Of a DNA stretch of 64,000 nt, positions 47,209-63,893 are shown one piece after another (positions within the stretch are counted from its first letter, which is position 1; every line of letters begins with the position of its first letter). The position numbers were made by a program, and so were the translations under genes. The stretch spans positions 1 through 64,000 of the forward strand of contig NZ_SDKK01000008.1 in the NCBI RefSeq assembly GCF_008107625.1. Reading direction: 5' to 3'. The notes under the pieces were generated by a model. It worked only from the letters and a program-made list of their open reading frames with translations. It was not told where the DNA came from and made no database searches. Source of the DNA: Zoogloea oleivorans. Its GTDB lineage: Bacteria > Pseudomonadota > Gammaproteobacteria > Burkholderiales > Rhodocyclaceae.

Positions 47209-47293
47209 GCCCAGATGGCGAAATTGGTAGACGCGCTAGTTTCAGGTACTAGTGCCGCGAGGCGTGGAGGTTCGAGTCCTCTTCTGGGCACCA
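47209..47293 (+). tRNA. tRNA-Leu (CAG), copy 1
   Basis: 85 bases with encoded CCA: acceptor GCCCAGA/TCTGGGC, D-arm with GGTAGACGC, anticodon loop TTCAGGT (CAG), a long class II variable arm and T-arm GGTTCGAGTCC. Identical in sequence to copies 2 and 3. Confidence 0.98.
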
Positions 47294-47304
47294 AGCATTT
47301 CGGG

Positions 47305-47335
47305 AAAGCCGGTCTTTTTGACCGGCTTTTTCTTT
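47305..47335 (+). terminator. Terminator of tRNA-Leu copy 1
   Basis: AAAGCCGGTC/GACCGGCTTT stem, TTTTT loop, T-rich tail, 11 bases after the tRNA. Confidence 0.93.
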
Positions 47336-47385
47336 GTCTGATTCGCTTTCAGAAATCTTTCCACAGCAGCCTGATCGTTTAAGTT

Positions 47386-47413
47386 TTGCGTTGGCATCAA
47401 TTTGTTCTATAAT
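47386..47413 (+). promoter_or_regulatory. Promoter of tRNA-Leu copy 2
   Basis: TTGCGT (47386-47391), 16-bp spacer, TATAAT (47408-47413). Confidence 0.8.
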
Positions 47414-47425
47414 AGCGCCTTCGTT

Positions 47426-47510
47426 GCCCAGATGGCGAAATTGGTAGACGCGCTAGTTTCAGGTACTAGTGCCGCGAGGCGTGGAGGTTCGAGTCCTCTT
47501 CTGGGCACCA
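47426..47510 (+). tRNA. tRNA-Leu (CAG), copy 2
   Basis: Same 85-base sequence as copy 1, 217 bases further on. The CGTT just upstream is also shared. Confidence 0.98.
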
Positions 47511-47521
47511 AGCATTTCGGG

Positions 47522-47552
47522 AAAGCCGGTCTTTTAGACCGGCTTTTTCTTT
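47522..47552 (+). terminator. Terminator of tRNA-Leu copy 2
   Basis: AAAGCCGGTC/GACCGGCTTT stem with TTTTA loop and T tail; one base differs from the first terminator in the loop. Confidence 0.93.
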
Positions 47553-47598
47553 GTCTGTTCCAGCTGGAGCAGTTATTAAAAATAGCTTCACGAATCTC

Positions 47599-47626
47599 TT
47601 GCATTACTTAAAAATCAGTCTATAAT
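47599..47626 (+). promoter_or_regulatory. Promoter of tRNA-Leu copy 3
   Basis: TTGCAT (47599-47604), 16-bp spacer, TATAAT (47621-47626). Confidence 0.8.
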
Positions 47627-47638
47627 TCGGTCTTCGTT

Positions 47639-47723
47639 GCCCAGATGGCGAAATTGGTAGACGCGCTAGTTTCAGGTACTAGTGCCGCGAGGCGTGGAGG
47701 TTCGAGTCCTCTTCTGGGCACCA
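47639..47723 (+). tRNA. tRNA-Leu (CAG), copy 3
   Basis: Same 85-base sequence as copies 1 and 2, 213 bases after copy 2. Its terminator stem differs. Confidence 0.98.
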
Positions 47724-53977: not shown

Positions 53978-54220
53978 TCAGCTGGCAACCTCGTTTTGTT
54001 CCTGCTGGATATTGACCGGACGGGCCGGAACAACCGTGGAAATGGCGTGCTTGTACACCATCTGCGTGACCGTATTCTTCAACAGCACGACGTACTGGTC
54101 GAAGGACTCGACTTGTCCCTGCAACTTGATCCCGTTCACAAGATAGATGGAAACCGGAACGTGCTCGCGCCGAAGCGCATTGAGGAATGGATCTTGAAGG
54201 AGTTGCCCCTTGTTGCTCAT
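53978..54220 (-). CDS. hfq: RNA chaperone Hfq
   Basis: An 80-residue Sm-like protein, [20 protein letters not shown], with Sm1 residues [10 protein letters not shown] and Sm2 [10 protein letters not shown]. It lacks a long C-terminal tail, as usual in beta-proteobacteria. It binds small RNAs and A-rich or U-rich mRNA sites, so the candidate small RNAs in this window could depend on it. A promoter -10 lies about 32 bases upstream. Confidence 0.98.
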
Positions 54221-62876: not shown

Positions 62877-63302
62877 TCAGCGGCTGTAAACGTTCATGCC
62901 GGGGAAGAAGAAAGCAATTTCCACCGCTGCCGTTTCGGCTGCATCGGAGCCATGCACTGCGTTGGCATCGATGGACTCGGCGAAATCGGCGCGAATGGTG
63001 CCGGGAGCGGCCTTCTTCGGGTCGGTGGCGCCCATCAGGTCACGATTCTTGAGAATGGCGCCTTCGCCTTCGAGAGCCTGGATCATCACCGGGCCGGAGG
63101 TCATGAAGGACACCAGATCCTTGAAGAAGGGGCGTTCCTTGTGCACAGCGTAGAACTCACCGGCTTCACGCTCGGAGAGGTAAGCCAGCTTGGCGGCAAC
63201 GACTTTCAGGCCGGCAGCTTCGAAGCGGGCGTAGATCTGGCCGATCACGTTCTTGGCGACGGCGTCGGGCTTGATGATGGACAGGGTGCGTTCAATAGCC
63301 AT
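62877..63302 (-). CDS. ndk: Nucleoside diphosphate kinase
   Basis: A 141-residue enzyme that balances nucleoside triphosphates. [18 protein letters not shown] is the canonical N-terminus and the phospho-acceptor His117 is in [12 protein letters not shown]. Preceded by GGAG; a -10 TAAAAT lies at 63354-63359 with a poor -35. Confidence 0.97.
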
Positions 63303-63359: not shown

Positions 63360-63480
63360 ACAGGTTGATGCGGCTCATCGGCTTTTTTCGGCTCGATGAT
63401 GTCGATGAGGGAGAGCAGGGATTGGGGAACACATAAGCCTGACGGGACCGTCAGGCGGGAATCGGGACAAAACGGGGAGC

Positions 63481-63507
63481 AAAAAAAAGGGTGCGCATCG
63501 CGCACCC
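63481..63507 (-). terminator. Terminator of the candidate small RNA
   Basis: GGGTGCGC/GCGCACCC stem (63489-63496, 63500-63507), 3-base loop and eight T on the minus strand. Confidence 0.93.
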
Positions 63508-63590
63508 CCAACCCCAACAGAGAGACTTAAGTCAAGGCACCCAGTGCCTGGAAGACGCATGTTGTTGCTCGTGTTTGCGTCTTCAACCTG
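63481..63590 (-). ncRNA. Candidate FNR-dependent small RNA (about 110 nt)
   Basis: Lies between ccoS and ndk, with its own promoter (63597-63638) and a strong terminator. From the predicted start near 63589-63590 the RNA can form a 9-bp hairpin (63576-63584 with 63551-63559) with a 16-base A/C-rich loop, a short hairpin GGCAC/GTGCC (63544-63548, 63536-63540), and a single-stranded CU- then G-rich segment before the terminator. The A-rich loop and poly-U end suit Hfq. No open frame of good quality follows the promoter. Not recognised as a known RNA family. Confidence 0.6.
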
Positions 63591-63596
63591 AGAGGA

Positions 63597-63638
63597 AGTA
63601 TGCGTGTCACTGCCGGACCCGATCTTGACCTTTATCAA
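63597..63638 (-). promoter_or_regulatory. FNR/ANR-type box and -10 of the candidate small RNA
   Basis: Minus strand TTGATAAAGGTCAA (63625-63638) differs from the FNR consensus TTGAT-N4-ATCAA at one base. Its centre is 63631.5. A CATACT -10 box occupies 63597-63602, exactly where a class II FNR promoter (box at -41.5) needs it for a start at 63590. Confidence 0.65.
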
Positions 63639-63695: not shown

Positions 63696-63893
63696 TCAGG
63701 ATCCGGGCTTGGCGGCCTGATCTTTTTTGCTCGCATCCACCTGAACGGGCGGCGTGTCATCGTCGCTGACCACCCGGTAACCCGGGCCTTCCAGATCGTC
63801 AAACTGCCCGCTGCGAACCGACCACCAGAAAATGAGGCCGATCAGAAAAACAAGGATCAACGACAGGGGAATGAGCAGGTAGAGGCTTTCCAT
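63696..63893 (-). CDS. ccoS: cbb3-type cytochrome oxidase assembly protein CcoS
   Basis: A 65-residue protein with one membrane helix (LYLLIPLSLILVFLIGLIFWWSV) followed by RSGQFDDLEGPGYRVV, the CcoS signature. It is needed for cofactor insertion into the high-affinity cbb3 terminal oxidase. The start is 8 bases after the ccoI stop. The C-terminal tail is charged and poorly conserved. Confidence 0.93.
   Translation of the reverse strand: MESLYLLIPLSLILVFLIGLIFWWSVRSGQFDDLEGPGYRVVSDDDTPPVQVDASKKDQAAKPGS

Follow-up and report, generated by a model that had tools for sequence, protein, structure and literature searches.

Between ccoS and ndk in Zoogloea oleivorans lies a stretch without a protein gene, and the question it raises is whether this DNA encodes an RNA of its own and, if so, which genes that RNA acts upon. 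A preliminary description of the window (the whole stretch of DNA analyzed, 64,000 nucleotides) had proposed a free-standing small RNA (sRNA), activated by FNR, and had compared it in logic with FnrS of Escherichia coli. We examined this proposal by comparative analysis of the promoter, the RNA and its possible targets (thresholds and samples are given with each result). With considerable confidence, we read the locus as a predicted FNR-activated, trans-acting sRNA that would block translation of oxygen-linked genes.

Locus layout and conservation

The features of the locus are collected in Table 1. The center of the FNR-type box lies 41.5 bases upstream of the predicted start, which is the spacing of a class II site. 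The predicted RNA folds at -43.1 kcal/mol (z score -2.96) and is more stable than all 200 of 200 shuffled sequences; this fold and the 10-pair hairpin bear out the foldable stretch of about 110 bases and the GC-rich terminator with eight U that had been described. The gene for Hfq, whose presence in the genome had also been pointed out, is encoded in the window itself.

Table 1. Features of the sRNA locus and its surroundings (window coordinates).
Feature	Position	Strand	Remarks
FNR-type box TTGATAAAGGTCAA	63638-63625	minus	one mismatch relative to TTGAT-N4-ATCAA
-10 element CATACT	63602-63597	minus	22 bases past the FNR box
sRNA gene (predicted), ~110 nt	63481-63590	minus	predicted start ~63590
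5' hairpin	63551-63584	minus	63584-63578 pairs with 63557-63551; compensatory changes
Second, variable hairpin	63535-63549	minus	predicted fold
Near-invariant pairing module UCUCUCUGUUGGGGUUGGGG	63525-63506	minus	20 nt, just before the terminator
Intrinsic terminator, eight U	63481-63509	minus	hairpin 63509-63487, 10 pairs; eight T to 63481
ccoS (FixS, PF03597)	63696-63893	minus	upstream neighbor of the sRNA gene
ndk (PF00334)	62877-63302	minus	downstream neighbor of the sRNA gene
hfq (PF17209)	~53981-54220	minus	end coordinates counted by hand from the protein

Two further features of the window are recorded here as separate observations. A second terminator-like perfect hairpin (GCCTGACGGTCCCGTCAGGC, 63437-63456) lies between the sRNA gene and ndk, and three copies of tRNA-Leu(CAG), with equal scores and about 215 bases apart, form a tandem triplication at 47209-47723 on the plus strand.

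A DNA search of 60 genomes from the same genus, family and order (the genome of the window included) gave matches in 29, namely 21 of 23 Zoogloea genomes and 8 of 13 other family members, with none among the 24 genomes from outside the family. The eight matches from other family members span the 3' end only. All 29 copies have exactly one upstream TTGA-N6-TCAA box, and a hexamer sharing at least four of six letters with TATAAT stands 22 bases past the box in 26 of them and 21 bases past it in two. The terminator is conserved in the aligned copies as well, so box and terminator, whose absence from close relatives would have counted against the original proposal, are both kept. The aligned copies vary in length and, by eye, have no start codon in common.

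A covariance model built on the 3' end of the sRNA (matches accepted at E up to 0.001) reached 235 of 296 genomes of the same GTDB family, in 56 of 68 genera, and gave no match in the other 61. We rechecked the weak matches in 30 family genomes, taking in every one with E above 1e-9: 26 are genuine, with an FNR box present and ccoS or ccoN adjoining in each, and one (G220) lies between ccoS and ccoN but without a box. The remaining three (G060, G250 and G269) resemble terminators matched by chance. In a sample of 399 drawn from across the order, 54 matches were obtained at the same threshold, of which only two from outside the family (G478 and G497, both above 59 bits and with a box) are convincing; a match at 39.4 bits (G374) has no box by eye, and the six inspected among those of about 32 bits or less all resemble chance terminators.

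The named genomes were scanned with an exact 18-mer of the module (UCUCUGUUGGGGUUGGGG), which returned at least 119 stretches; the genera among the matches listed are Azoarcus, Aromatoleum, Thauera, Pseudothauera, Denitromonas, Dechloromonas, Azonexus, Azospira, Accumulibacter, Sulfuritalea, Uliginosibacterium, Tepidiphilus, Hydrogenophilus, Desulfobacillus and Zoogloea. Pooling gave 152 distinct copies among the matches listed, each with the 18-mer, a run of T and at least 120 bases of upstream sequence. Ten rows were dropped before this count, two with fewer than 50 upstream bases and eight without a run of T. These eight are six loci (one having three matches): two (L100 and L199) probably come from genomes that hold dsrC-like target leaders (G249 and G331, respectively), and four (L102, L155, L189 and L201) look like chance.

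Exactly one TTGA-N6-TCAA box occurs within 260 bases upstream in 151 of the 152 distinct copies (among the matches listed), compared with 16 of 7600 shuffled upstream sequences, and the best -10 element stands 21-22 bases past the box in 144 of the 151 boxed copies (likewise among the matches listed). Because six FNR-type boxes with at most one mismatch are found in the window when 1.07 would be expected, the box taken by itself is little evidence, and its assignment rests on this conservation, which upholds the class II arrangement that had been described. The distance from box to module ranges from 34 to 198 bases, while the box and its spacing to the -10 element stay conserved. The one copy without a box, L140 (JAJVIJ010000045.1), is the sole terminator-bearing copy of its kind with at least 120 upstream bases among the matches listed, and it also has no ccoS match.

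Structure of the predicted RNA

Compensatory changes in the 5' stem had been named as a point to check, and here the outcome is divided. Across the alignment, 92.9% of the cells in this stem are paired, and at four of its seven pairs both partners have changed; counted over the entire structure, 12 cells are changed on both sides, compared with 3.9 in shuffles, a number that 0 of 500 shuffles reached, and the slid controls were all lower than the real alignment. The count of pairs changed on both sides was matched by 56 of 500 shuffles, however, and 242 of 500 reached the count of further pair types; neither count therefore supports covariation. The outermost pair of the 5' stem fails in 7 of 20 sequences, and the terminator stem is invariant within the Zoogloea set used for covariation. 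A second hairpin of five to seven pairs, differing in sequence and not constant in position, is present in 20 of 21 Zoogloea copies, a figure that carries no chance control.

The A/C-rich loop at 63560-63575, earlier suggested as the targeting part, is not the part that is conserved across the family, and the likely pairing module is instead the 20-nt segment just before the terminator (Table 1). In the first 29 copies, which were collected by similarity over the whole region, the same 20 letters recur in 26 and the first two letters differ in three, the last 17 being identical in all 29. The named copies do not bear on invariance, because they were collected by the 18-mer itself. Among the 26 genuine weak matches, the exact 18-mer is found in 10, the 14-mer core UCUCUGUUGGGGUU in 19 and UUGGGGU in all 26, and the last four G are the most variable part of the module. 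In one subgroup (L426, L429-L434, L439, L440 and L446-L448, from genera g43 and g41) UUGGGG at the module end is replaced by UUCGGG or UUUGGG or is altered in some other way. In predicted folds the UGUU in the middle of the module is most open and the module ends are partly paired.

Gene neighborhood

Of the 110 boxed sites in the named collection, 104 have a same-strand match to ccoS upstream. On the other side, 115 of the 152 distinct boxed copies are followed by ccoN in the same orientation, mostly at a distance of 190-500 bases (both counts among the matches listed). In 33 of the 37 copies without ccoN, also among the matches listed, the sequence available downstream was shorter than 2 kb, and in four it was longer. 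Most often, then, the elements follow one another as ccoS, FNR box, sRNA, terminator, FNR box, ccoN. At six named Zoogloea loci and in the window, ndk and rlmN take the place of ccoN downstream, with box, module and terminator kept, and among the named loci listed only Zoogloea has ndk as the downstream neighbor. The position beside the cbb3 oxidase genes, as first described, stands, whereas the setting between ccoS and ndk was seen only in Zoogloea among these loci, the gene elsewhere lying mostly between ccoS and ccoN.

This order invites the reading that the region is the leader of the ccoNOQP operon, with the FNR box driving ccoN and the hairpin serving as an attenuator; the frequency and closeness of ccoN on the same strand speak for it. 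We nevertheless consider it highly unlikely. At least one further FNR box, belonging to ccoN, stands between the module and that gene in 111 of the 115 copies (among the matches listed), and the module is complementary to other mRNAs (see below). Moreover, Zoogloea keeps the sRNA at a site that has no ccoN, which argues against a cis-acting ccoN leader.

The regular presence of ccoS on the other side would suit a region that is merely the terminator or 3' untranslated region (UTR) of ccoS mRNA. Any RNA from it might then be a processed 3'-UTR product, made without a dedicated promoter, and read-through from ccoS would indeed stop at the same terminator. This we hold to be very unlikely, given that the box and its -10 spacing are conserved although the distance between box and module varies so widely, and that a plain terminator has no need of a conserved module or of matching target sites. 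Both origins may apply together, the sRNA arising from its own promoter and also from the ccoS transcript. As for the free-standing FNR-driven sRNA first proposed, the prediction is strongly supported by the conserved box, the -10 spacing, the stem, the terminator and the complementary target sites to which we now turn.

Candidate targets

We searched 23 Zoogloea genomes for the 14-mer CCCCAACAGAGAGA, a complement of the module, allowing at most one mismatch. It occurs 50 times, 29 of them outside the sRNA gene, compared with 12 occurrences for the backward control. These 29 sites fall in petA leaders (three), mauB-like leaders (five) and a cytochrome-like gene (seven), with one each at hmp, a DUF2889 gene, a MOSC gene and an SRPBCC-like gene (assigned by eye), and ten others, most of them without an evident start. 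Because two of the 12 backward-control sites also lie at translation starts, part of the start-site effect is attributable to the likeness of GAGAGA to a Shine-Dalgarno sequence.

For a family-wide search over 296 genomes we used the pattern CCCCRRCRGAGAGA followed by ATG after 2-14 bases (the backward control of this pattern carries no ATG). The 46 rows obtained, from 41 genomes, include 14 that are the sRNA gene itself and one duplicated site; 31 non-self start sites stand against six for the backward pattern, and six of the 31 are doubtful, with a reading frame of fewer than 100 codons. The remaining sites include those of sodB (PF00081), four pobA (TIGR02360, above cutoff), a folE2-like gene (by eye) and a citE-like gene (below cutoffs), and of a dsrC/tusE-like gene (PF04358) that has its site in seven Desulfobacillus-genus genomes and in one further genome. 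The hmp candidate, with a score of 425, stays below the cutoff of the NO-inducible flavohaemoprotein model (432). As a family-wide target petA was set aside, its site being clear only in three Zoogloea genomes; among 30 petA loci, 13 yielded a leader by motif, L287 alone looking strong, and the other 17 yielded none.

With G.U pairs allowed, the pairing runs are long: a perfect 20 of 20 at the dsrC-like gene in four loci of one genus, 21 with one G.U at sodB, 20 with one G.U at hmp (one genome), 15-19 at pobA (four genomes), 18-19 at the cytochrome-like gene, 14-17 at mauB-like genes and 14 at petA. The members of the cytochrome-like family (L232, L226, L236 and L238-L241) share a CGSCH motif and are preceded by a conserved short reading frame, within which the sRNA site lies and which reads MTGPDRET... 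in L226 and L236; the L232 protein is matched by no Pfam or NCBIfam model, and in the PDB only weakly.

The target evidence in the window's own genome is thinner. At up to two mismatches it has 22 places (the sRNA itself included), compared with 13 for the backward control. The best sites are in a mauB-like leader (a 17-base run with two G.U pairs, about 50 bases before the start) and at the cytochrome-like gene (an 18-base run about 100 bases before the start, inside the short upstream reading frame), and weaker ones start 27 bases before the ATG of nifB (TIGR01290) and lie about 20 bases before the start of an MFS-like gene (by eye). Pairing with the closest sodB is average (-21.7 kcal/mol, the lower quartile of the background), the one petA leader examined of two has no site, and a protein search of this genome found no gene of the dsrC type seen among the predicted targets.

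Tests on independent leaders

We sought the dsrC-like protein in 150 family genomes, found a match in 38 and examined 30 leaders, ranking them against 455 background leaders taken from loci of the family (the cco region contributes many of these, and some probably belong to spurious frames). For dsrC/tusE-like orthologs (61-100% identity), 18 of 24 leaders, from nine genera, fall in the best 2% of this background; when the three discovery genomes are removed, 15 of 21 still do. None of the six paralogs (48-50% identity) is in the best 2%, their best rank being 0.029 and the others 0.42-0.96. Two orthologs from genomes with no detected sRNA rank at 0.22 (G063) and 0.12 (G110). The real module pairs with the ortholog leaders at a median of -33.3 kcal/mol, compared with -23.75 kcal/mol for the best shuffled module, and 0 of 300 shuffled modules did as well.

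The sodB leaders (n = 30) are also shifted relative to the background (P of about 9e-8 once the discovery genome is left out), and all 300 shuffled modules pair less well than the real one, albeit by a narrow margin for the best of them (-22.75 versus -23.4 kcal/mol for the real module). Shuffling the sodB leaders destroys the Shine-Dalgarno sequence, so that control was dropped in favor of real leaders with shuffled modules. P values of this kind are too small, because related genomes are not independent; the paralog and shuffled-module controls are independent of them. In these sequences, then, the promoter layout, the terminator, the structure, the conservation and the long complementarity at orthologous leaders are all directly visible, and the dsrC/tusE-like gene, which belongs to sulfur relay and is not evidently oxygen-linked, is the best-supported predicted target.

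The same controls bear on whether the RNA might mainly bind protein (as a sponge for Hfq or another RNA-binding protein), the target matches being secondary. A conserved pyrimidine- and GU-rich module beside the terminator could be a protein site, and its ends are partly structured in the predicted folds. That the same orthologous leaders bear complementary sites in nine genera and none of the paralogs does, and that no shuffled module of 300 matches as well, makes this explanation highly unlikely in our estimation.

Proposed mechanism

In the reading that we favor, that of an FNR-activated sRNA acting in trans, low oxygen would activate the gene's own class II FNR promoter and give rise to an RNA of about 110 nt that ends at the intrinsic terminator. 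The 20-nt module, held between the 5' structured region and the terminator, would pair with the translation-start regions of oxygen-linked mRNAs, and this pairing would block ribosome binding and repress translation, probably with Hfq. Transcription, its dependence on FNR and oxygen, the dependence on Hfq and the repression are what we infer from the comparative evidence. The sRNA is very probably switched on when oxygen runs out, and it probably turns off the matched oxygen-related genes. Since the sRNA gene sits in the cbb3 (cco) cluster under the same kind of switch, the high-affinity oxidase would go up while aerobic functions are trimmed. The products of sodB, hmp, pobA and petA are a superoxide dismutase, an NO dioxygenase, an O2-consuming hydroxylase and a component of the bc1 complex, and as predicted targets these several functions fit a switch away from oxygen.

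A wider reading is that a roughly 20-nt address (core UCUCUGUUGGGGUU) of an FNR-driven RNA, present in most sampled Rhodocyclales, defines an anoxia regulon that mRNAs would enter by acquiring, and drop out of by losing, a near-full-length complementary tag at their translation start. We offer this tentatively, as a real possibility toward which we do not yet lean; it is weakened by the variation of the address in the weaker family members. Pairing as long as 20-21 nt is unusual among bacterial trans-acting sRNAs, and the address reading, if true, would amount to strong plug-in silencing coupled to induction of the cbb3 oxidase. Rhodocyclales are prominent members of the bacteria in sewage works with alternating aerated and airless phases, and the sRNA loci include those of Zoogloea, Thauera, Azoarcus, Dechloromonas and Accumulibacter. 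If confirmed, a conserved sRNA linking the induction of the oxidase with the silencing of aerobic genes would be a missing layer of the air/no-air switch. The predicted pairing is long and specific enough for direct testing, and the sRNA family could be proposed to Rfam.

Comparison with known systems

When the Rfam models were compared with the locus, no family attained its gathering score, and the FnrS model is absent from the eight matches obtained at E up to 10. One report places the FNR site of FnrS at -41.5 (PMC3032703), and another counts SodA and SodB among its targets (PMC8595263). The sRNA described here resembles FnrS (of E. coli and other Enterobacteriaceae) in the -41.5 site and in having sodB among the targets, predicted ones in our case, and it differs in its near-invariant module, able to pair over its full length, just before the terminator. 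The likeness in logic that had been suggested is thus upheld, together with the absence of evident sequence likeness.

AniS/FnrS of Neisseria is a beta-proteobacterial, anaerobically induced sRNA with a class II FNR site, comprising a 5' stem-loop, an unstructured stretch and a terminator (PMC3032703). The predicted RNA shares with it the class II site, the 5' stem-loop and the terminator. The Rfam AniS model (RF02274), which we take to represent the Neisseria AniS/FnrS RNA, scores 18.7 bits (E 0.47) against a gathering threshold of 50, and its consensus lacks the core CUCUGUUGGGG.

The SorX and SorY models, from Rhodobacter RNAs, have in common with the module the string CUC-CUGUUGG before the terminator, which may reflect common ancestry or convergence; they score 19.9 and 23.2 bits at the locus, compared with gathering thresholds of 46.6 and 111. 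PhrS of Pseudomonas aeruginosa is anaerobically induced under ANR. PaiI of the same species is reported to be anaerobically induced in a NarXL-dependent manner. Anaerobic induction, predicted for the sRNA here, is the likeness to these two, and neither is among the Rfam matches of the locus (compared by name only). S17/bdhR1, likewise from beta-proteobacteria, is reported to have a 27-nt pairing region that is fully conserved and that should disrupt ribosome binding when it anneals (PMC11722255). Our sRNA resembles it in host group and in having a conserved pairing region, but the locus is unmatched by the corresponding model (RF02278, a beta-proteobacterial 'toxic' sRNA family). Two other loci of the same genome, C8:329548-329613 and C47:181779-181848, are above the cutoff of this model.

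We found no description of the sRNA in the open-access literature (most subscription papers lie outside this search) and no Rfam family for it. In our judgment it forms a new family whose functional kind is already known, set apart mainly by the unusual length of its target pairing, and the best reading of the compared sequences is that the predicted RNA is FnrS-like in logic, not in sequence.
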